The notes: generated by a model not told the origin, from the letters alone. A stretch of 64,000 nucleotides of DNA from Spirochaeta cellobiosiphila DSM 17781 (GCF_000426705.1 NZ_KE384555.1:406362-470361), one strand, 5' to 3'. Counted from the first letter of the stretch, positions 4,877 through 15,556 are shown. Numbers and translations are program-made.

Positions 4877-5422
4877 ATGATTGAACTAATCCTCGGAGGG
4901 ACAAAAACAGGGAAAACCTCCTATGCCATTAATCAGGCCAAACAAACCAGCATCCCCGGCAACAAAGTTCTTTATATAGCAACAGCTACCCATACTGACA
5001 AGGAAATGACAAGACGCATCAGAAAACATCAAGAAAGCCGACCTCAGGATTGGTCAACATGGGAAGAACCAACCCGAATAGCCGAGAATCTTATAGAGAA
5101 AATACAAGCCTATGATGCGGCCATACTAGATTGCATGACACTTCTGATGACTAATTGGCTAATGGAGGAAGGAGAAGACCCCGATCCGCTTACAGCAGAA
5201 AAGAACATTCTTACAAAAGTAAATAAGCTCCTGGCAGAAGCAAAACAGGTCCCCATACCAATTTATATTATTAGTAATCAAGTGGAAGTTGGTTTACACA
5301 GTCCTTATTCACTTGGAAGATTGTTTCAAGACTTAGCCGGTGTGACACACCAACGGATAGCGCAACAGGCACAAAAAGTAGTCGTTATGCACGCGGGACT
5401 TCCACTGGTCTTAAAGGCTTAG
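4877..5422 (+). CDS. cobU: Adenosylcobinamide kinase / adenosylcobinamide-phosphate guanylyltransferase
   Basis: This 181-residue protein has a P-loop right at the N-terminus (GGTKTGKTS, residues 7-15) and the CobU features VLYIATA, RIRKHQESRP with the histidine that is guanylylated in the family, and the acidic ILDCMTLL strand. CobU phosphorylates adenosylcobinamide and then transfers GMP, preparing it for CobS. CobS is encoded 37 kb away (41987), and B12-dependent methionine synthase lies in between, so corrinoid salvage is likely. There is no clear ribosome-binding site before the ATG, yet the P-loop so close to the start leaves no later option. Confidence 0.92.
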   Translation: MIELILGGTKTGKTSYAINQAKQTSIPGNKVLYIATATHTDKEMTRRIRKHQESRPQDWSTWEEPTRIAENLIEKIQAYDAAILDCMTLLMTNWLMEEGEDPDPLTAEKNILTKVNKLLAEAKQVPIPIYIISNQVEVGLHSPYSLGRLFQDLAGVTHQRIAQQAQKVVVMHAGLPLVLKA

Positions 5423-5908
5423 ATTAATATTATACTTATGACTTTCATCTTCTACACTATCAACAGGTAGAATCTTAACATCAATCAGAACGTTATCAAT
5501 ATAGAACTCAAAGGTCCAATCTCCCGGAAGATCTTCCTGAGGATCAAATTTATACTTTGTCCAGAAAGACCAATAGTCATCAGGTCCCAAATCGATGTAA
5601 ACAGACTCATGAATAGAAGAAACCAGTTCATTATCTGGATCATAGATATTGAACCTATATTCATAGATACCAGTAGGAACATCTACAATACTAGCCAAAA
5701 AGATAATGCCAGTCATAGACAGATCTGCTTCAGTGATCCAGTCTAAAGGTTCATAATGATAATCTAAACCCGAGGTAAAACCGGAATCAATCTTGAGCTC
5801 TGCCAATCGGTTGACATTTAAATTCTTCAAAGCTAAACAAGAACTAAGATTAAGGCTTATAAAAACTAATAAGATAACAGTGATTGGTTTAATCTTTTTC
5901 AATAACAA
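5411..5908 (-). CDS. Putative lipoprotein of unknown function
   Basis: I place the start at a TTG (5908) because GGAGG lies seven bases upstream, directly after the stop of the preceding gene; an ATG at 5947 would overlap that gene by 26 bases. From the TTG the protein opens with LLKKIKPITVIL and reaches a lipobox LSSC, so it is probably lipid-anchored. The 165-residue product is otherwise rich in aromatic and acidic residues (for example DYHYEPLDW, DPQEDLPGDW) in beta-strand-like alternation. No family recognised. It is the last gene of the efflux/two-component block and overlaps cobU's end by 12 bases. Confidence 0.72.
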   Translation of the reverse strand: MLLKKIKPITVILLVFISLNLSSCLALKNLNVNRLAELKIDSGFTSGLDYHYEPLDWITEADLSMTGIIFLASIVDVPTGIYEYRFNIYDPDNELVSSIHESVYIDLGPDDYWSFWTKYKFDPQEDLPGDWTFEFYIDNVLIDVKILPVDSVEDESHKYNINLSL

Positions 5909-5921
5909 CCTGGGACCTCCG

Positions 5922-6413
5922 CTAATAAAGTATTCCGAACTCAACAAGACTAAATTCCACTTGCCAGGATTCCTCTGCTAACCCCCATAATACGGTTGTA
6001 GGCATAAAAGAGATAATAGGAATAACCTCATCACCTGGATCAGAGATAGAAAGCCAGGAACTGTATATACTTGCTTTGAATCCTACATAGGGCTTTGAAA
6101 AATCATCCATAACGAAAGCAGGACCGATAATATAATAAGCATTATCTCCCATAGAGAAACCTGGGAGCATAGCATTAAGCTCCAACCGGTAATGGTCTTT
6201 GTCATGGGGAGACACAAGGGTAGAAATACCACCATTTAAATAATAAAAACGGGGATTCATTTTACTGATATGAAAGCCAAGATAGTACCCACCCTCCTCT
6301 TCTTCGGAGTAATAGACACCACTTTCACTAAACAAAAACCCCCAATAGTTTGTACCATAAATTGATGCTGATAATAGCAAAAATAAGATCGTTACGTATA
6401 AAGATTTTTTCAT
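5922..6413 (-). CDS. Small exported, probably outer-membrane beta-rich protein
   Basis: The likely start is the ATG at 6413, giving a clean signal peptide (MKKSLYVTILFLLLSASIYG); a longer frame begins at 6461 but would overlap the kinase gene. The mature part of about 145 residues alternates hydrophobic and polar residues with many Tyr, Trp and Gly and ends in an aromatic residue (GILY), as in small outer-membrane barrels. No family recognised. It lies 16 bases after the histidine kinase gene and 13 bases before the lipoprotein gene, so it is probably part of the efflux operon, perhaps as an envelope partner or regulatory target of that system. Confidence 0.72.
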   Translation of the reverse strand: MKKSLYVTILFLLLSASIYGTNYWGFLFSESGVYYSEEEEGGYYLGFHISKMNPRFYYLNGGISTLVSPHDKDHYRLELNAMLPGFSMGDNAYYIIGPAFVMDDFSKPYVGFKASIYSSWLSISDPGDEVIPIISFMPTTVLWGLAEESWQVEFSLVEFGILY

Positions 6414-6429
6414 AAACCCATCATAAACA

Positions 6430-7812
6430 TTATGAGGAACTATGAATAGCTTTAGAATCATTCCTATAATTATGGGGGTAGATATCAGATTCTTCTACAA
6501 TAGGAAGGGTGATTTCAAAGCAGGAACCGCCCAGAGAGGATTTATAACAACGGATGCGACCACCAGCCATATCGAGCATATTCTTTACCATAGCCAGACC
6601 AATACCCATACCACGAGCGTTTCTTCCATTATCCTCTCTATAGAACAACTGAAATACCTTGTCCAGATTTTCTTCCTTTATCCCGATACCCGAGTCTTCC
6701 ATTTTCAATAGCACAACTTTGTTTTCTTGAAAAGCAGAAAAGAGAATCTGGTCCCCTTTATGGGAATAACGACAGGCATTATCAAATAGATTCTCAAGTA
6801 TCCTCTGATACTGGCTATCAACCCCACTAACCATCACATCATCCATGAGTATCTTATATTGAAAATCCCTGTCACGAGCATGGCTGTCATCCTGTAAAGC
6901 GGGTAGAAGATTTTGTAATAGTGGTTTTATCCGACAAAGATGACTACTGCTTTGATTATAACCATTTCGACTATACTCAATAGATTCCTGTATACGCGTT
7001 TCCAAAGTCGCTGCTTTGGTCAACATCATGGCGGCTGTTTTTTTGATGTCCTCTTCCTCTGTGATCAAGCCATCCTTAAAGGCTTCCAAATACCCCCTGA
7101 TACTAGTTAAAGGAGTTTTTAAGTCATGAGTGATAGACATCATAAACCGCTTTTCCATAGCCTTTTTGGCTTTAAGGTCCTTTGACATATTTTTAAAGGC
7201 AAATACAACGGGATCTATTTCATTATAAGACAAAGGTATATGAGGAATATCAAAGTTACCATCAGCGATTAAGCTGGATGCACTTACAAGGGCTTCTGTA
7301 GTTCTTTTCATTCGCTTAAGGACACGGAAACCCATGATTAACATAATAGAAGACACAAGAAAGAGAATGTTAAAAATCGCATCTTTGACACCGCTTCTAA
7401 GATAAAGAGGTAAGTAATCCAGGTCAAAGAAACATACCCCATCCACACCTTTGAACTTAAACTTGGTGATAAGTATTCCAGAGAAGGAACCTTCTTCAAA
7501 GTACCTTTTACCCAAATCCACATCCGATAATAAATCGGGAATGGGATAACCTAACTTATTAGCATAGACCATTCCATCAAGTGTCGCTACATATAGCAAA
7601 CCAGGCAGTAAATCAGAGGTAGTATCCTTTTCATACAGAACATCAGACAAAGGCTTAATCAAATAACGAGGGGCAATGATCTCCTTATTATCCGTGGAAG
7701 TATTCACTTGAAGGGAGGTGATAAAAGTAATCATCATTATAATGATATACACGATAGGAATGATCGGTGTTAAAAGATAAATACGAGTAAGGGTATTACG
7801 ATTTCTAATCAT
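6430..7812 (-). CDS. Two-component sensor histidine kinase
   Basis: This 460-residue kinase has membrane helices at about 9-34 and 145-166 bracketing a roughly 110-residue periplasmic sensor. A HAMP-like linker follows, then the dimerisation domain with the phospho-accepting histidine in SITHDLKTPLTS (His229). The ATPase domain shows the N box (ENLFDNACRYS), G1 (DSGIGIKEEN) and G2 (RGMGIGLAMV). It follows the response regulator gene by three bases and is surely its cognate kinase. The pair sits directly behind the RND pump and PII-like genes, which suggests control of that pump or a shared envelope or metal stress signal. Confidence 0.95.
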   Translation of the reverse strand: MIRNRNTLTRIYLLTPIIPIVYIIIMMITFITSLQVNTSTDNKEIIAPRYLIKPLSDVLYEKDTTSDLLPGLLYVATLDGMVYANKLGYPIPDLLSDVDLGKRYFEEGSFSGILITKFKFKGVDGVCFFDLDYLPLYLRSGVKDAIFNILFLVSSIMLIMGFRVLKRMKRTTEALVSASSLIADGNFDIPHIPLSYNEIDPVVFAFKNMSKDLKAKKAMEKRFMMSITHDLKTPLTSIRGYLEAFKDGLITEEEDIKKTAAMMLTKAATLETRIQESIEYSRNGYNQSSSHLCRIKPLLQNLLPALQDDSHARDRDFQYKILMDDVMVSGVDSQYQRILENLFDNACRYSHKGDQILFSAFQENKVVLLKMEDSGIGIKEENLDKVFQLFYREDNGRNARGMGIGLAMVKNMLDMAGGRIRCYKSSLGGSCFEITLPIVEESDIYPHNYRNDSKAIHSSS

Positions 7813-7815
7813 ATC

Positions 7816-8505
7816 TTACGACTGACCTTCCATATAATAACCAGCTCCGTATCGTGTTTTGATAAGATGAGGATTCGAAGGATCATCTTCCAGTTTTTTA
7901 CGAAGCCTTTGAATGTGAACGCTAACTGTTGTTATTTCGCCATATTCATTACCCCATACCCTCTTGAAGATTTCTTCCTGAGTATGAGCCTTTCCTGGAG
8001 ACTCGGCCAAATAGAAGAGCAAATCTGTTTCCCGGGGGGGGAGAGAAATCAGTTCACCCTTCTTATGAACAGTCTTATCATAAAAGTTAAGAGTTAAATG
8101 GCCAAAGGAAACACGTTCAATTTCTGAATGTTTTTCACTTTCATTCTTGCGTTTCAAATGCGCTCGTATTCTTGCCGCTAAAACAGAAGGACTAAAGGGT
8201 TTTGTCACATAGTCATCTGCTCCACCGCCAAAGCCGAGAAGCATATCCACATCTTCTTCACGGGCTGATATGATGACAACAGACACTTCACTGAATTTTC
8301 TAATCCTTTGGAGAGTCTCAAAGCCATCAATCCCGGGAAGGTTAATATCCAGAGCAACAAGATCAAAAGCTTCCTGTTCCAGCTTAAGTAAACCTTCCTC
8401 ACCGGTTTCACACCATACGGTGTCCATGCCTTCTTTTTTTAAGTAAAGGGAGATAAGATCGCCTATCTCCTTTTCGTCTTCAATGATCAGAATACGAGCT
8501 TTCAA
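7816..8505 (-). CDS. OmpR/PhoB-family response regulator
   Basis: The protein has a receiver domain with the acidic pair ED (residues 9-10) and phosphorylation site D53 (LVALDINLPG), and a conserved lysine in VTKPFSP. A winged-helix DNA-binding domain follows from about residue 125 (SLPPRETDLLFYLAE, VSVHIQRLRKKLE). It starts with TTG at 8505; GAGGAGG lies six bases upstream, which settles the choice. It is sandwiched between the PII-like gene (11-base gap) and its kinase, and probably autoregulates the efflux operon. Confidence 0.95.
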   Translation of the reverse strand: MKARILIIEDEKEIGDLISLYLKKEGMDTVWCETGEEGLLKLEQEAFDLVALDINLPGIDGFETLQRIRKFSEVSVVIISAREEDVDMLLGFGGGADDYVTKPFSPSVLAARIRAHLKRKNESEKHSEIERVSFGHLTLNFYDKTVHKKGELISLPPRETDLLFYLAESPGKAHTQEEIFKRVWGNEYGEITTVSVHIQRLRKKLEDDPSNPHLIKTRYGAGYYMEGQS

Positions 8506-8516
8506 AAAAACCTCCT

Positions 8517-8813
8517 CTAAATGAGAGAAACTGCATCTTGTACCTGGAACATAGCCAACCCCTGGATAGGGAAGTGTTTTTTCAAAGACTTCATGTGGTT
8601 AACTAAATCTTCCACCACAGCATCCTCAATGTAGAGAATGATGATATCATTTAGTTCGGGCCACACATCATCCCCTAGACAGGGGCCGGAAAAGCCCCTC
8701 CCTTTAACATCAGGAATGAGGGAATACTTAAGGTCTTCCCCAAATTCTTTAGCCACTTCTGCAAGGACAACATCAACAATGGCTCTGTTCATGAATATTT
8801 CAATTCTTTTCAT
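8517..8813 (-). CDS. PII-like signalling protein linked to RND efflux
   Basis: This 98-residue protein has the size and beta-alpha-beta pattern of the PII superfamily: MKRIEIFMNRAIVDVV at the start, a central variable loop with VKGRGFSGP, and IILYIEDAVVEDLV followed by LKKHFP near the end. It lacks the classical T-loop tyrosine and the glnK/amtB context, so it belongs with the atypical PII-like proteins found beside RND pumps in some Bacteroidetes and spirochaetes. Its first 14 bases overlap the end of the RND transporter gene, meaning translational coupling. It may bind a small ligand and modulate the pump, but this is inferred from context. Confidence 0.78.
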   Translation of the reverse strand: MKRIEIFMNRAIVDVVLAEVAKEFGEDLKYSLIPDVKGRGFSGPCLGDDVWPELNDIIILYIEDAVVEDLVNHMKSLKKHFPIQGLAMFQVQDAVSLI

Positions 8814-11800
8814 TATCTATCTCCTTTAGAGCGGCTTGCCTACTGTAGAAAAGGGCATATAAAGCGGGAACAACAAAGAGAGTTGTTACTGTGTTAAATG
8901 TAAGACCACCAACTACGGTTAGTCCCAAAGGTTGCAACATTTCAGCCCCTTCCCCTGGAAAGAAAGCCATAGGTATCATAGCCAGTACAGTCGTTAAGGT
9001 AGTCATCAAAACAGGTCGTATTCGACTTCCTCCTGCATTTACTATGGCCTCATGAAGAGGTTCACCTCTTTTTCTCAACAGGTTAATATAATCCACTAGA
9101 ATGATACCGTTATTTACAATGATACCAGCTAGCATAATCACCCCGATCATAGCAGGAAGACTGAAGGGAATTCCTGTAAGGTAGAAAGCCAGAATAACAC
9201 CGGTAAACATGGTAGGCATGGCCAAAAAGATAATAAAAGGAGCTCTCAAGCTTTCAAACTGACTTACCATAACGCCAAACACCAAAAGAATGGCGACGAT
9301 CATTACGACAAGCATCCCTCTCATGGATTCACTAATATCATCAAATGATCCACCATATTCAATCCTGACGCCATCTGGAGTTTCAAAGTTCTCGGCGACA
9401 GCCGCTTCTACTTTTCCCTGTACAAAGTTTGCTGCATATCCAGGCAATAAGTTAGCAGTAACATTGATGGACCGAACTTGATCCTCACGGGTGATCTTGG
9501 CAGGGGTCTCACTTCGCACTAATTCTGCAAAGTTAGAGACAGCGACTTTTTCTCCATAAGAGTTCATAACATAAAGGTTGTCCAAATCAATAATGGAATT
9601 ACGATCTGCTTCTTTTAGTCGTACAACGATATCAAGAGAATCTTCACCATCTTTAAAGGTAGTAGGAACCAATCCTGTAATTTGGCCTCTTAATTCTTGG
9701 GCAATACCAGAAGTACTAAGTCCCAGATCATAAGCTCTAGCTCTGTTAATTTTGAACTCGATTTCAGGTAATCCCTGGGAAGCACTGGAAGTAATTTCTG
9801 TTAATCCATTAACATTATCTCTAATGATTTGAACGATTTCATCAGCAGAACTAGTTACCAATTCCAGATCCTGTCCAATAAGACGAATCTGAATATCCGC
9901 ATCTGACTGACCCATGTTATCACTGGTGTTGGTAAAACTGAAGTCTGCTTGAGGATACAAATCAAATTGTTTTCTTAAGATATTTTTAATGGATTCTGCA
10001 TCAGTAATTCTTTCATTAAGAGGGGGAAGAACAATCTTTAAATTACCTTCAAAGGCATTGTCCCCACCGGAAGTAGCAATGACGGATTTGTACCCCTTTA
10101 TCTCATCAAAGACAACCTGTTGAAGTTGGCTCATAAGTTGTTTTGTTGTATCTAAAGAGGTTCCCGTTGGTAGAGTAACTTGCAATATAACACTATCAGG
10201 TTCAGTTTCAGGATTAAACACTAGTCCAATAGAAGGAACTAAGGCAAAAGAACCAACCAATAGAATTAAAGAGACTAAAACTGTTTTCCACTTATGCTTT
10301 GTTGTCACATTGAGCGCTTTCATATAAACATTCTGTAAGCCCTCTAATATTTTATCTATAAAAGCACTGAAAGGATTTCTTTTCTTATTTTCTGCACCTA
10401 ACTCATCCTTGGAGGTTATGCTGCTAAGAACGGGAATAAGGACCACAGCAACCAATAATGAAGAAGACAGGGACAGAATAACTGTTAAACTAAGATCTCC
10501 GAAGAATTCTCCCATTATACCCATTTGTTTTTTCATAACAAACATAGGAAGGAATACAGAGATAGAAGTTAAAATCGATCCTGTTACAGGACTAATCATT
10601 TCTCTTGTACCTATAAGAGAAGCGGTCTTGGCCAAGATTCCTTTCTTATGGTATTTGTCTATATTTTCCAGGACAACAATAGAACCATCAACAATCATAC
10701 CAACACCTAGAAGCAGACCTCCCAAGGTTAAGATATTAAAAGTCTTACCGGCAACGGCCAAACCAGCAATGGTTATCATAATCGATACAGGAATGGACAG
10801 GGAAACGATTAAGGTTGAGTTCCAACGCCCTAAGAAGATAGCCAATACGATAACAGCTAAAATAACCCCTACAATAGCTGAATTAATAACCTGATTAAGG
10901 ACCTGTTCAACTTGTACAGATTCATCACTTAAGATTTCCATATGAACATCATGAGGTAATTGGGCGTTAATATCATCTTGATTAGCTTTTACTTCTTTAG
11001 CTAATTCTACAATATTGGCCTCTTCAGTAGCCACTATACTAAGGGAGATCCCTTCTTTACCATTAATAAGAACTTCATTTTCTTCTTCAGCCCATCCCAT
11101 TGATACGTCACCGATATCACGGATGAGAACTTCATGAGTCTGACCAGACTGCCCCATATTAACACGATGGATAACAGTTCCTTCGATTTGTTCCAGATTA
11201 TCAAAAGCACCTTTTGATGTAAGTATAAAATCCTTTCCATCTGAAGTTAAGGTTCCTGCATTGAGGCTCAAATTCTGTTGGGATATCATGTTATGAACCA
11301 TTTGAAGGCTCAGATTATAAGCCCCAAGACGGTTCTTATCGATATCAACATGAACTTCTTTATCTCTGTTACCAGTAATTTCAACCTGGGCTACACCGGA
11401 GATACGTTCAAGTGCGGGCTTAACAACGTCCTCTGCCAGTTTACCTAATTCATCTATAGGCCGGTCTCCATATAAAGTTAAATCCATGATAGGGAGGGCA
11501 TCCGGATCGAATTGCCAGAGAATAGGATCATCCACATCATCTGGAAAGCCCATCTTTTTTTGTTTAACAATGGCATCCACATCATCTGCGGCATCATCCG
11601 GATCAACACCAGACTCAAACATCATGATAATCAACCCGAAGTTTTCAGACGAAGTAGACGTAAGTTTGTCCAAACCGGATATAGAACTAAGACCTTCCTC
11701 TAGAGGAATGATCACTTCATTTTCCACTTCCTCAGGACTGGCTCCAGAATAGATTGTATAGACAGCCACAACAGGAATAGAGACATCTGGCATCAAAGCT

Positions 11801-11901
11801 ACTGATAAGCTACCGGCCATCAATATTCCGACAGTAACAACAATCGTAAAGAGAGTCAGAACTGTTAGAGGTTTTTGCTGTACTCTTTCAACAAAACTCA
11901 T
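8800..11901 (-). CDS. RND-family efflux transporter (AcrB/MdtB-like inner membrane pump)
   Basis: At 1033 residues it is full length. The two repeated halves each carry a leading membrane helix, a large periplasmic loop and a membrane bundle. The proton-relay aspartate region is present (GVGMIVDGSIVVLENI), as are AGASP-type porter motifs such as YSGASPEEVE at the N-terminus. Such pumps export drugs, metals, lipids or bile-like compounds by proton exchange; the sequence resembles the drug/hydrophobe (HAE) branch rather than the heavy-metal CusA branch, but the substrate is not certain. It overlaps the fusion-protein gene by four bases (ATGA) and the PII-like gene by 14, so all three are coupled. 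Confidence 0.96.
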   Translation of the reverse strand: MSFVERVQQKPLTVLTLFTIVVTVGILMAGSLSVALMPDVSIPVVAVYTIYSGASPEEVENEVIIPLEEGLSSISGLDKLTSTSSENFGLIIMMFESGVDPDDAADDVDAIVKQKKMGFPDDVDDPILWQFDPDALPIMDLTLYGDRPIDELGKLAEDVVKPALERISGVAQVEITGNRDKEVHVDIDKNRLGAYNLSLQMVHNMISQQNLSLNAGTLTSDGKDFILTSKGAFDNLEQIEGTVIHRVNMGQSGQTHEVLIRDIGDVSMGWAEEENEVLINGKEGISLSIVATEEANIVELAKEVKANQDDINAQLPHDVHMEILSDESVQVEQVLNQVINSAIVGVILAVIVLAIFLGRWNSTLIVSLSIPVSIMITIAGLAVAGKTFNILTLGGLLLGVGMIVDGSIVVLENIDKYHKKGILAKTASLIGTREMISPVTGSILTSISVFLPMFVMKKQMGIMGEFFGDLSLTVILSLSSSLLVAVVLIPVLSSITSKDELGAENKKRNPFSAFIDKILEGLQNVYMKALNVTTKHKWKTVLVSLILLVGSFALVPSIGLVFNPETEPDSVILQVTLPTGTSLDTTKQLMSQLQQVVFDEIKGYKSVIATSGGDNAFEGNLKIVLPPLNERITDAESIKNILRKQFDLYPQADFSFTNTSDNMGQSDADIQIRLIGQDLELVTSSADEIVQIIRDNVNGLTEITSSASQGLPEIEFKINRARAYDLGLSTSGIAQELRGQITGLVPTTFKDGEDSLDIVVRLKEADRNSIIDLDNLYVMNSYGEKVAVSNFAELVRSETPAKITREDQVRSINVTANLLPGYAANFVQGKVEAAVAENFETPDGVRIEYGGSFDDISESMRGMLVVMIVAILLVFGVMVSQFESLRAPFIIFLAMPTMFTGVILAFYLTGIPFSLPAMIGVIMLAGIIVNNGIILVDYINLLRKRGEPLHEAIVNAGGSRIRPVLMTTLTTVLAMIPMAFFPGEGAEMLQPLGLTVVGGLTFNTVTTLFVVPALYALFYSRQAALKEIDNEKN

Positions 11902-12788
11902 AGGACTTCCTCTGACATGACAGAAATAGGAGCACCATTATATAAAAGGTTCTTTCCAGAAGTGATAACCTTATCCCCTTCACTTAGTCCGGATACAATT
12001 TCCGCTTTTCCTTCAGATCTAATTCCTATGTCGACCTTAACCAACTCAGCTTTACCGTCGGTGATTTTGTACACATAAGTATCTTCATCTCTCTGTAAGA
12101 GAGCTTTTTCTGAAGTGATAACAACATCTTCTTTGGATTGGGACAATAAACGTATATCAACATACATTCCCGGTTTTAACTTACCTTGATTATCGATTAA
12201 CTTAAGCTTCACAGTAGCTGTTCTGGACAAGGGATTAATAACAGGGGATATTTCACTAATCTGTACTCTCTGGGAGAAACCTGGGAGTGCGTCTGTAGTG
12301 ACAACCCCTTCACGACCGGGAGATAAACGGAAAACGTATTTCTCAGGCACCTGTAGTTCGATCTCCAGATTATCCAGGATGCCAACCTTAGCCAATGCTG
12401 ATTGAGGAGATGTCATGGCACCCTCTTCTCCTGTTACAGAAGTAACTGTACCAGTTATGGGAGAATTAACAGGACTTAAAGAGTAATTAAGACCGGGACG
12501 GGAAGGATCGATATCTGCAATCTTTTGCCCCTTACGAACATAATCTCCTACACTAACGTATATCGCATGGATCTTACCAGAAGTATCAGGCATAACAGAA
12601 ATGGTACTTTTGGCTTGCACATCACCAAAGAGGGCAATCCAATCTTGAATGGGTCCTCTCACTACATCAGTGGTTCTTACCTTAATGGCAGGAACTTCAT
12701 TTTTTGTTTCTTCTTGGACATCCTTTGGTTTACAACTCACCATAACTAAGGATGCTATGGTCAATGCTATCAACAATTGCTTTTTCAT
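11898..12788 (-). CDS. RND efflux periplasmic adaptor (membrane fusion protein), lipoprotein
   Basis: The 296-residue protein starts with a lipoprotein signal ending in VMVSC (C19). A lipoyl/biotinyl-like hairpin follows with VSVGDYVRKGQKIADID and SPVNSPITGTV, then the beta-barrel region (PVINPLSRTATVKLK, KLKPGMYVDI) and a membrane-proximal end (GLSEGDKVITSG). It bridges the inner-membrane pump and the TolC-like channel. It is slightly short because the alpha-helical hairpin is nearly absent, as in several adaptors of this type. It is 18 bases downstream of the TolC-like gene and overlaps the pump gene. Confidence 0.94.
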   Translation of the reverse strand: MKKQLLIALTIASLVMVSCKPKDVQEETKNEVPAIKVRTTDVVRGPIQDWIALFGDVQAKSTISVMPDTSGKIHAIYVSVGDYVRKGQKIADIDPSRPGLNYSLSPVNSPITGTVTSVTGEEGAMTSPQSALAKVGILDNLEIELQVPEKYVFRLSPGREGVVTTDALPGFSQRVQISEISPVINPLSRTATVKLKLIDNQGKLKPGMYVDIRLLSQSKEDVVITSEKALLQRDEDTYVYKITDGKAELVKVDIGIRSEGKAEIVSGLSEGDKVITSGKNLLYNGAPISVMSEEVL

Positions 12789-12806
12789 GTTGGCTCCTTT
12801 CTTTTT

Positions 12807-14162
12807 CTAAAACTGACCCAGGTTGTATTTAAGGTCTAAATAAGTCATCAAATAGTCATATTGACTACTGATATAGTCGAACTCAGCGGATAAGTAGTCA
12901 TCCTCCGCAGATTTTAATTCATAGTATGTTTTGGTACCTGAACGGTAAGCGACCTTCGTTAAGTCATAGGTTCTTTTGGCTAAATCCCGTCCTTTTAAGG
13001 AGGCTGTAATAGTCTGGGACTGGGATACCAGAGTACTCCTCAGGCTTTTTAATTGAACGGCCAGACCTTCTGTTGCGGATAACTTCTGGTATCCTAGAGC
13101 TTTGATTTGATCCTTGTAGCCATCAATATCCATTTGACTGGAACTAAAGGGAAGCCAGGCATCAAGGGGCATGGATAAGGTTATGGTTAATGAACCTTGG
13201 TCACTCCAGTTATCAGAATCAAAGTAGTCACTAAAACTGGAGTATTTATCTCCATCTGTTGGATTACCAAGTATGGGATTGTATCCCCATCCTAAGGTGA
13301 GGGTTGGTAAGTTCTGATAGAAGGCGGCCTTCTTCGCATTCTCTAATTGTTCTAAATTATTATCCAACTGTAGCAATGTTAATGATGAATCAAGATCCCC
13401 TTCCACTCCAGAAAGATCATCAACGGAGATTTCACCTACAAGAGTTATTTCTTGTTCCTGAGGTAATCCTAGCTTATACGTGAGGCCCTTGATACCGTTC
13501 TTAATCCCTTCATCCATTTGGGTCAAACTAGGTTTCATTCTCTCTAATCCCACCTGAACTTGAAGGAGGTCTAGTTCTGTACTGTATCCATTGTTGTACA
13601 TATTACGAACGTCTTTGAGACGTTGTTCCATTGTTTGATACTGAGATTGAAGAATAGCTCTCTGTTTTTGCAAGAGAAGGATTTGATAGAAGCTCTTTTG
13701 AACATCTAATGCCGTATCTTGCCAAGCCACTTGCCGATCCAAAGAGGCACTCTCACTGTTAAGCTTTAAAGCCTTGATACCATTTCCAATGGCAAGGTTC
13801 AGATTTAATTGAGCTGTCATCTGAGCGACTAAAGAGTCTTTAGAATCAAATGACATCACTTGAACCTTATCGAATGAATTATCTCCTGGGCTAAATGAAC
13901 TAGGGACTGGGGTTAGAGCAGATGTCGTACTAACTTCATTACTCTTGGCATAGGTCATAGACAAGTTCATAGTAGGCATAAACACATTCCATGCGGCTTT
14001 TTCTTTTTTTACAGCCGTATGTAGGGATACATCATTAGCTTTTAAGGAATAATTATTATCTTTGGCTATTTGAAGAGCATCTTCAATGGTTAGCGCCTTA
14101 GGATCTGACCAGAGTAATGCTGCCCATGTCATCATCAATATTAGGGATAGAGACTTTCTCAC
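12807..14162 (-). CDS. TolC-like outer membrane efflux protein
   Basis: I choose the GTG at 14162: GAGGAGG sits five bases before it and the protein then begins with a signal peptide (RKSLSLILMMTWAALLWS). The mature protein has the two-fold repeat of long coiled-coil helices of the OEP family: ALTIEDALQIAKDNNYSL, then NNGYSTELDLLQVQVGLE in the first half and YRSGTKTYYELKSAEDDYL in the second. It should form the trimeric exit duct for the adjacent RND pump. It is the first gene of the efflux block, about 125 bases after the end of the GH13 gene, so the operon promoter should lie in that gap. Confidence 0.93.
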   Translation of the reverse strand: MRKSLSLILMMTWAALLWSDPKALTIEDALQIAKDNNYSLKANDVSLHTAVKKEKAAWNVFMPTMNLSMTYAKSNEVSTTSALTPVPSSFSPGDNSFDKVQVMSFDSKDSLVAQMTAQLNLNLAIGNGIKALKLNSESASLDRQVAWQDTALDVQKSFYQILLLQKQRAILQSQYQTMEQRLKDVRNMYNNGYSTELDLLQVQVGLERMKPSLTQMDEGIKNGIKGLTYKLGLPQEQEITLVGEISVDDLSGVEGDLDSSLTLLQLDNNLEQLENAKKAAFYQNLPTLTLGWGYNPILGNPTDGDKYSSFSDYFDSDNWSDQGSLTITLSMPLDAWLPFSSSQMDIDGYKDQIKALGYQKLSATEGLAVQLKSLRSTLVSQSQTITASLKGRDLAKRTYDLTKVAYRSGTKTYYELKSAEDDYLSAEFDYISSQYDYLMTYLDLKYNLGQF

Positions 14163-14287
14163 TATATCCTCCTCATAGTTATCGCGTATACATAAAGTAA
14201 TCAAGAAGAGCCATAAAAACCATAAACGGTCAATAAAGGAATTTTAAACGATTTGTTTATCTTAATACTTAGATAAAATGAGCCTGG

Positions 14288-15556
14288 TTATAGGAATACT
14301 TCCACGATCATAGGATAATCCTGAATGACTAAACCCAGGGCCGTGTATGTAATAGGCTCAGCATTAAGAATATCTCTAGCTTTAGAGAGGTTCCTCTCAG
14401 GATAGAGGCCTTTGACTTGTCCCATATTTAGAAAGGCTATCACCCTTCTTCCTACAAGGTCCCAACTCAAGCGCAGGACTCCCTTCACTGTAGTCCAATC
14501 AAAACTTAAGGTATAATCCTCTTGTTCGATACTTTGTTTTATTTTCAGTAAACGATGAATAAAAAGGCTTTTATCTAACGCCGGATCACGGGAGAACAGG
14601 TCTTTTTCAAAAAGGGAGGGAACCTTTTCACAAGAGTATTCCTGCCCCCCATAAATAAGAGGAATACCTCTGTTAAGAATGAGGAAGCTCATCCAATTAT
14701 CCCAAAGCCGTCCTTCTTTTAACAAAGCTCTGGACCGGAGTTGATCATGGTTTTCAATGAATCGCAAACGAAACCGACCAGGAGTCCTATGACATTCCTG
14801 ATCCTGGATAAGCTCCATATAACGATCCATCTTATCACCATTATCAAGAGCCCTCCGCCAACAGGGATAACTGTCATATTCGTAGAGAGCATGAAAATAC
14901 TGATAAAGCTCAGCATCAGTAGAAAAAGGGATACCTCTTTCTGATAAAAAGGATTTAAAGCTTTCATCAATTGATTCACCTATCCATATGAGTTGATCAT
15001 TTATAAGAGAACAGGCCTGATAGGCTGATTTCCAAAAGGACAGAGGAACCAGAGAGGCCACATCACAACGAAATCCATCAATACCCCTGTTTACCCAAAA
15101 CAGAAGAACATCAATGAGATATTCCTTCACCCCCCTTTGTGAATGGTCCAAATCAATGACATCACTCCATTCTGTAATCCGGGATCTAATCTGACCCTTG
15201 TCATTACAATGAAAATATTCAGGATGAGTTTGATAGAGAACGGAATCATAAGAAGTATGATTGAATACAATATCCATGATCACCCTTATCCCCTTATTAT
15301 GGGCCCTACTTAGGAACTCCTCAAAATCGGCCATACGTCCATATTCAGGATTTATTCCATAATAGTCCTGAATAGAATAGGGACAACCTAAAGAACCCTT
15401 TCGATTTTTCTGACCAATTGGATGAATGGGCAAGAGCCAGATCGTATCAATACCCATATCTTTTATTCGTTTCAAATCGGGAATACAACTTTGAAAAGTA
15501 CCTTCAGGGGTGTGATTTCTGAGATAGACAGAATAAATAGCCAGAGGTGGTTTCAT
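14288..15556 (-). CDS. GH13 alpha-amylase-family glycoside hydrolase
   Basis: This 422-residue protein has no signal peptide, so it should act in the cytoplasm on imported maltodextrins or related alpha-glucans. The conserved regions are all visible: region I DIVFNH (95-100), nucleophile in GFRCDVAS (D165), acid/base in WIGESID (E194) and the third carboxylate in ENHDQ (D271). The short B-domain and the C-terminal beta domain fit small GH13 enzymes such as neopullulanase- or amylosucrase-like hydrolases; the exact substrate cannot be assigned. AAGGG precedes the ATG. Upstream lie two copies of a palindromic element that may control it. Confidence 0.9.
   Translation of the reverse strand: MKPPLAIYSVYLRNHTPEGTFQSCIPDLKRIKDMGIDTIWLLPIHPIGQKNRKGSLGCPYSIQDYYGINPEYGRMADFEEFLSRAHNKGIRVIMDIVFNHTSYDSVLYQTHPEYFHCNDKGQIRSRITEWSDVIDLDHSQRGVKEYLIDVLLFWVNRGIDGFRCDVASLVPLSFWKSAYQACSLINDQLIWIGESIDESFKSFLSERGIPFSTDAELYQYFHALYEYDSYPCWRRALDNGDKMDRYMELIQDQECHRTPGRFRLRFIENHDQLRSRALLKEGRLWDNWMSFLILNRGIPLIYGGQEYSCEKVPSLFEKDLFSRDPALDKSLFIHRLLKIKQSIEQEDYTLSFDWTTVKGVLRLSWDLVGRRVIAFLNMGQVKGLYPERNLSKARDILNAEPITYTALGLVIQDYPMIVEVFL

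Follow-up and report, generated by a model that had tools for sequence, protein, structure and literature searches.

We analysed a stretch of 64,000 nucleotides from Spirochaeta cellobiosiphila DSM 17781, in the following called the window, and found in it an efflux operon whose core unit consists of a TolC-like protein, an adaptor, an RND pump and a PII-like protein. In our favoured reading, which we hold with moderate confidence, this is a BesCAB-type tripartite pump with two control layers encoded in one gene row, and two small exported proteins at the end of the row (s1 and s2) are passengers. One layer would act on the operon promoter through a built-in two-component system, the other on the pump itself through the PII-like protein.

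Organization of the operon

The original prediction had described eight consecutive genes separated by gaps of at most 18 bases and by overlaps of 4 and 14 bases, and the open reading frames and junction coordinates bear this out. All eight frames lie on the minus strand, in the predicted order, and run from 14162 down to 5411:

12807-14162, minus strand: TolC-like outer-membrane efflux protein, 451 aa, GTG start, ribosome site GAGGAGG (PF02321 OEP, 136 bits)
11898-12788, minus strand: periplasmic adaptor, 296 aa, a hairpin-less, BesA-like lipoprotein (RND_mfp, 171 bits; HlyD/RND adaptor family)
8800-11901, minus strand: RND pump, 1033 aa (ACR_tran, 761 bits; solved relatives MdtB, MexB, AcrB and others)
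8517-8813, minus strand: PII-like protein of the PG0541 family, 98 aa, proposed cytoplasmic pump subunit (NF045581, 84 bits; PII fold; RND linkage)
7816-8505, minus strand: OmpR-family response regulator, 229 aa, TTG start behind GGAGG (Response_reg and Trans_reg_C; conserved in six-gene operons)
6430-7812, minus strand: membrane histidine kinase, 460 aa (HisKA and HATPase_c)
5922-6413, minus strand: s1, small exported protein, 163 aa, probably outside the conserved unit (signal-peptide-like start; coding-like codon usage)
5411-5908, minus strand: s2, small putative lipoprotein, 165 aa, TTG start, probably outside the conserved unit (lipobox-like LSSC; GGAGGT ribosome site)

From tolC onward the junctions are a gap of 18 bases to the adaptor gene, overlaps of 4 bases between adaptor and RND genes and of 14 bases between RND and PII-like genes, and gaps of 11 bases (PII-like gene to regulator), 3 bases (regulator to kinase), 16 bases (kinase to s1, if s1 starts at ATG 6413) and 13 bases (s1 to s2). 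A longer s1 frame from ATG 6461 would overlap the kinase gene. We placed the tolC start at GTG 14162 behind GAGGAGG; TTG 14204 lies upstream of the predicted -10 element. When the region was scanned, promoter-like matches (30 versus 26.6 expected by chance) and terminator-like matches (11 versus 6.9) were near or slightly above chance level, and the scan gave no coding-strand terminator-like site inside any gap between the eight genes. At the downstream end, the 3' ends of s2 and of a convergent cobU-like gene overlap by 12 bases (window 5411-5422), so that there is no room for a terminator between them. Upstream, an alpha-amylase-like gene on the same strand (window 14288-15556) lies 125 bases before the tolC start, and the conserved promoter described below sits in this gap. 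Judged from its sequence, the predicted operon is real and well bounded.

The pump core

The best solved relative of the adaptor is BesA (4kks, E 3.2e-40), and the alignment of the two is ungapped at the hairpin site. Adaptors without the hairpin are the rule at PG0541-RND loci, where at least 90 of 96 distinct adaptors carry a relaxed hairpin-less signature; a strict signature had found only 60 of 110, was too narrow and was replaced by the relaxed one. The best subfamily score of the RND pump is that against the multidrug RND permease NF033617 (630 bits, below the cut-off of 1250), and it exceeds the score against the heavy-metal family CusA/CzcA TIGR00914 (420 bits, below the cut-off of 701). 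The pump hence passes no subfamily cut-off.

The PII-like protein and its linkage to the pump

Against the PG0541 family of 'transporter-associated' proteins (NCBIfam NF045581) the PII-like protein scores 84.4 bits over residues 2-91, with a cut-off of 45 bits. Its AlphaFold model (pLDDT 88), built from 39 homologues, has CPII as top structural match (Z 11.8, rmsd 1.8 over 84 residues), and further matches are PotN, GlnK (Z about 10.4), SbtB and a DUF3240 protein (Z 10.2). On the evidence of this model the protein belongs to the PII superfamily by its ferredoxin-like fold, and the PII-like label of the original prediction was right in this respect. At the sequence level the family profile matches CPII weakly (E 0.0016). 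A Pfam profile search gave the window protein no match to canonical PII (PF00543) above the Pfam cut-off, and another PG0541 protein of the same genome barely passes the P-II cut-off (28 versus 25). Since nothing could be learnt from comparing the PG0541 alignment, as a profile, with one GlnB protein of this genome, the PII assignment rests on the fold and on weak sequence matches. Positions G38, G40, W51, P52, N55 and G85 are invariant in the family, and a WPExN motif lies where the loop equivalent to the PII T-loop ends. In a by-eye comparison the basic residues that hold ATP in GlnB were not recognisable, and we therefore propose no ligand; ligand sensing by the PII-like protein is assumed.

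PG0541 genes are present in 36 of 60 and in 237 of 395 genomes of the class. Of 114 distinct loci, 111 have the PG0541 gene immediately after the RND gene, mostly overlapping or abutting it, and in the other three it is fused to the RND C-terminus. The expectation that the PII-like protein belongs with the pump thus holds in its general form at all 114 loci. The three fusions (L134, L135 and L136) are open frames of 731 residues (cut by a contig end), 1137 and 1158 residues with an intact PII motif, and they form one clade in the RND tree. One of them is followed by regulator and kinase genes.

The C-terminus of AcrB-type pumps is cytoplasmic, so that a domain fused to it sits in the cytoplasm. 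RND pumps are moreover trimers. As far as is known, the transporters under PII control seem to function as trimers (PMC10710835), and hence a PII trimer docked on the pump trimer would be the most economical reading. The PII-like protein is probably a cytoplasmic pump subunit that adjusts pumping. Most PG0541-RND operons have no adjacent two-component genes, and therefore control at the level of the promoter and control at the level of the PII-like protein are separable. By gene neighbourhood, the PII-like protein goes with the pump and not with the two-component system, and this putative pump subunit is far more widespread than the window operon. The literature searched contained no study of a PG0541 protein acting together with a pump.

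Kinases are among the many known partners of PII proteins. It might thus be thought that the PII-like protein makes no contact with the pump but modulates the kinase or the regulator, or that it acts as a free cytoplasmic sensor of a metal or metabolite. The latter would parallel PII-NG, which lies next to CzcABC in Geobacter and has been proposed as a cytoplasmic cobalt sensor (PMC7726332). We consider this unlikely, because nearly all PG0541-RND loci have no two-component genes next to them and still keep the PII gene at the pump gene, and because three natural fusions tie the protein to the pump.

The same genome carries a second TolC-adaptor-RND-PII operon (L064, G000:C25:122800-142700), upstream of which lie divergent regulator-like and other genes. 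PG0541-RND pairs were also seen in metagenome bins labelled Lentisphaerae and 'bacterium' (L168, L178), in both of which long Ala/Gly/Ser-rich stretches occur near the adaptor N-terminus.

The two-component system and six-gene operons

Conserved order in relatives had been named as a check of the original prediction, and when it was run the first six genes proved conserved whereas the last two did not. Ten further genomes of the class show the order TolC, adaptor, RND, PII-like protein, regulator, kinase. Besides the window, the loci with regulator and kinase genes behind the PII gene are L071, L072, L075, L081, L117-L121 and L124; L122 and L123 break off at contig ends. The genomes fall in four GTDB families (f1, f6, f23 and f26). 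Named members of the set include Ca. Marispirochaeta associata (L177) and Ca. Thalassospirochaeta sargassi (L164), the named copies being from Spirochaetales and similar spirochaetes, and a phylum-wide search added no further six-gene operons. In a quick tree the RND proteins from these operons fall into a single clade (13 rows, SH-aLRT 100), in which the branch of the window is long. Regulator genes at L154, L051/L052 and L134, which lie elsewhere in the RND tree, are probably separate gains.

Among the six-gene operons the response regulator is conserved, and the kinase orthologues are divergent in their periplasmic part. A model of the kinase sensor (pLDDT 70) gave no structural fold match, which is not evidence of a new fold. 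The regulator scores 150 bits against BaeR (cut-off 380) and the kinase 133 bits against BaeS (cut-offs 500-603), both below the thresholds. The comparative data support the view that pump, PII-like protein and two-component system have been inherited together as one unit, and a self-contained circuit of six genes is the best reading of them.

A conserved promoter upstream of tolC

In the gap upstream of tolC we noted three elements:

14245-14259, minus strand: inverted repeat TAAAC-AAATC-GTTTA, the box of the six-gene operons and proposed binding site of the operon's own regulator
14220-14238, minus strand: in-phase half-site-like repeats CTTTA (+11) and GTTTATGG (+22), from a gapless alignment of upstream regions
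14194-14199, minus strand: -10-like hexamer TACTTT, 24 bases after the conserved ATG of GTTTATGG (TAnnnT with the same spacing in 11 of 11 operons)

Written as TAAAC-N4/5-GTTTA and with at least 9 of 10 matches, the box is found in 8 of 9 six-gene operons (7 of them perfect) versus 2 of 77 other PII-RND operons. One of these two, L154, has a regulator gene, and the other, L123, is a member of the six-gene clade; L118 has only a degenerate box (8 of 10). The sequence TAAAC-AAATC-GTTTA is the only exact match in the 64-kb window, where 0.11 would be expected, and there are 7 distinct exact sites of the box in the 3.95-Mb genome. Counted from the inverted repeat in the alignment of upstream regions, the half-site-like pentamers recur at +11 and +22, and 8 operons have a TAnnnT hexamer at +50. 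An insertion is common to L120 and L123, in which the final part of the promoter is kept. In 11 of 11 regions, L122 included, 24 bases separate the conserved AT(G) from the -10-like hexamer, a spacing that played no part in anchoring the alignment. The conserved-column score was 20.0, whereas 5000 misaligned controls averaged 7.5 and reached at most 14.3; this score is descriptive, since the box columns were chosen after inspection. Box and two-component genes have essentially one origin, so that their correlation is not independent evidence, and the tree holds too few independent pairs for an independent test of it. A direct repeat, TTTATGG-N2-TTTATGG, had also been considered upstream of tolC; with 2 mismatches allowed its count was at chance level, and it was replaced by the conserved box.

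From these elements we think that the built-in regulator probably binds the inverted repeat and activates its own operon. Alternatively, the box might be the site of another, unlinked regulator, and the two-component system of the operon might control other genes. Each genome has other exact box sites, and OmpR-family regulators bind direct repeats more often (PMC7380067), which would fit this second explanation. However, the box tracks the regulator-bearing operons (8 of 9), it is absent from operons that have no regulator genes, among them the second PG0541-RND operon of this genome, and some OmpR-type regulators, AgrR for example, do bind inverted repeats with in-phase direct repeats (PMC7380067). 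Hence an unlinked regulator seems improbable to us, and we retain autoregulation as the preferred reading of the promoter.

The exported proteins s1 and s2

The codon usage of both s1 and s2 is coding-like in frame and above all 500 shuffles, and s2 starts at TTG 5908 behind GGAGGT and has a lipobox-like LSSC. Searches against protein families gave no convincing match for either protein, and in 395 genomes neither has a counterpart next to the operon. Both are almost without homologues in these genomes: all remaining matches are weak, one of s2 at E 8.6e-6 (29% over 96 residues) and the others at E 0.005-0.009. The s1 query had one additional residue at its start, which is of no consequence. 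A match to a complement receptor was spurious. In other lineages the kinase gene is followed by a phosphatase-like frame, by a POTRA-like exported protein or by nothing on the same strand. The POTRA-like (BamA/TamA-like) exported protein, recognised by eye, stands directly behind the kinase in L071 and L075 (family f6).

The original prediction had read all eight genes as one self-contained circuit. Of this claim the six-gene part stands, as one inherited unit with the same order in ten other genomes, one RND clade and one conserved promoter, but conservation of all eight genes was rejected because s1 and s2 have no syntenic homologue. That the exported proteins are nevertheless sensor or effector parts of the circuit would agree with the narrow gaps of 16 and 13 bases, the good s2 ribosome site, the signal peptide or lipobox and the coding-like codon usage, but it is very unlikely, as no other six-gene operon holds a counterpart, unrelated genes follow the kinase there and homologues are nearly absent from the 395 genomes. 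The two proteins look translated and occur only here, and probably they are lineage-specific passengers.

Proposed mechanism

In the two-layer model, the first layer, which we derive from the conserved DNA, would begin with the kinase sensing an envelope signal and phosphorylating the OmpR-type regulator. The regulator would then bind TAAAC-N5-GTTTA and the in-phase half-sites just upstream of the -10 element, and so switch on the whole operon, its own gene included. In the second layer, suggested by gene order, natural fusions and fold, a trimer of the PII-like protein would sit on the trimeric pump at its cytoplasmic face and tune its activity to a cytoplasmic ligand, in the way that GlnK acts on AmtB and SbtB on SbtA. 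The model is supported by the PII-RND linkage (111 of 114 loci and 3 fusions), the PII fold, the six-gene clade, and the promoter box and its rarity in its own genome. It gains further support from the resemblance of the promoter layout to the AgrR operator and from the fact that PII proteins are known to control trimeric transporters.

A wider proposal, for which we see about even chances, is that PG0541 proteins belong permanently to RND export pumps as trimeric subunits and gate them from the cytoplasmic side in response to a ligand, from free-living spirochaetes to Lyme-type Borrelia, where the protein would be the product of a fourth bes gene, and that in one clade they have been joined to an autoregulated two-component promoter. 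Control of RND pumps is mostly thought to consist of gene expression and a few small membrane proteins. If indeed the proposal were true, RND pumps would be under fast post-translational control, of the kind that GlnK exerts on AmtB. The inseparability of the PII-like partner from the pump gene, with fusion of the two in some cases, points to such fast cytoplasmic control, exerted by a metabolite or ion. With the fusions and the Borrelia orthologue at hand, the idea of pump control can be tested directly, and the conserved promoter offers a precise and checkable operator candidate for the built-in two-component system.

Comparison with known systems

The AgrR operator of Cupriavidus metallidurans is similar in that an OmpR-family regulator acts on an inverted repeat with an in-phase direct repeat (PMC7380067); it has been footprinted, with type II activation and positive autoregulation (PMC7380067). 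The half-site is ATTACA there and TAAACA here, and AgrR belongs to a silver response, its binding being proven whereas ours is predicted.

For the PII-like protein, GlnK-AmtB and SbtB-SbtA are comparable, as in both a PII trimer regulates a trimeric membrane transporter and the genes are linked (PMC10710835). They differ in serving uptake and not export, in belonging to other PII subfamilies and in that contact is proven there and inferred here. In Geobacter sulfurreducens (GSU2134-2137) PII-NG shares with our case that a PII-superfamily gene and an RND exporter are in one operon (PMC7726332). However, there a PF00543 protein heads a heavy-metal operon, whereas the PG0541 protein of the window has no PF00543 match and stands behind a pump that scores below the CusA/CzcA cut-off.

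In E. coli and its relatives the genes of the RND pump MdtABC are activated by BaeSR, an OmpR-type regulator paired with an envelope-sensing kinase (PMC4107485). The regulator and kinase of the window do score against BaeR and BaeS, but below their cut-offs, and the window operon differs further in its single RND gene, its PII-like gene, its gene order and its operator.

The closest parallel to the pump core is offered by BesCAB of Borrelia burgdorferi. The order TolC-adaptor-RND in one gene row is the same, the adaptor BesA lacks the hairpin (PMC3807786) like that of the window, and in Borrelia and Borreliella loci, too, a PII-like gene lies directly behind the RND gene besB. We saw the bes operon followed by a PG0541 PII-like gene at L191, L194, L197 and L205. 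In the part of the BesCAB-defining paper considered here three genes are given and the gene behind besB is unnamed, and one complementing fragment took in 457 bases behind the genes (PMC2279261). The Borrelia locus differs in that it lacks the regulator and kinase genes and the TAAAC-N5-GTTTA box. The window system can be read as a BesCAB-like pump combined with BaeSR-like control.
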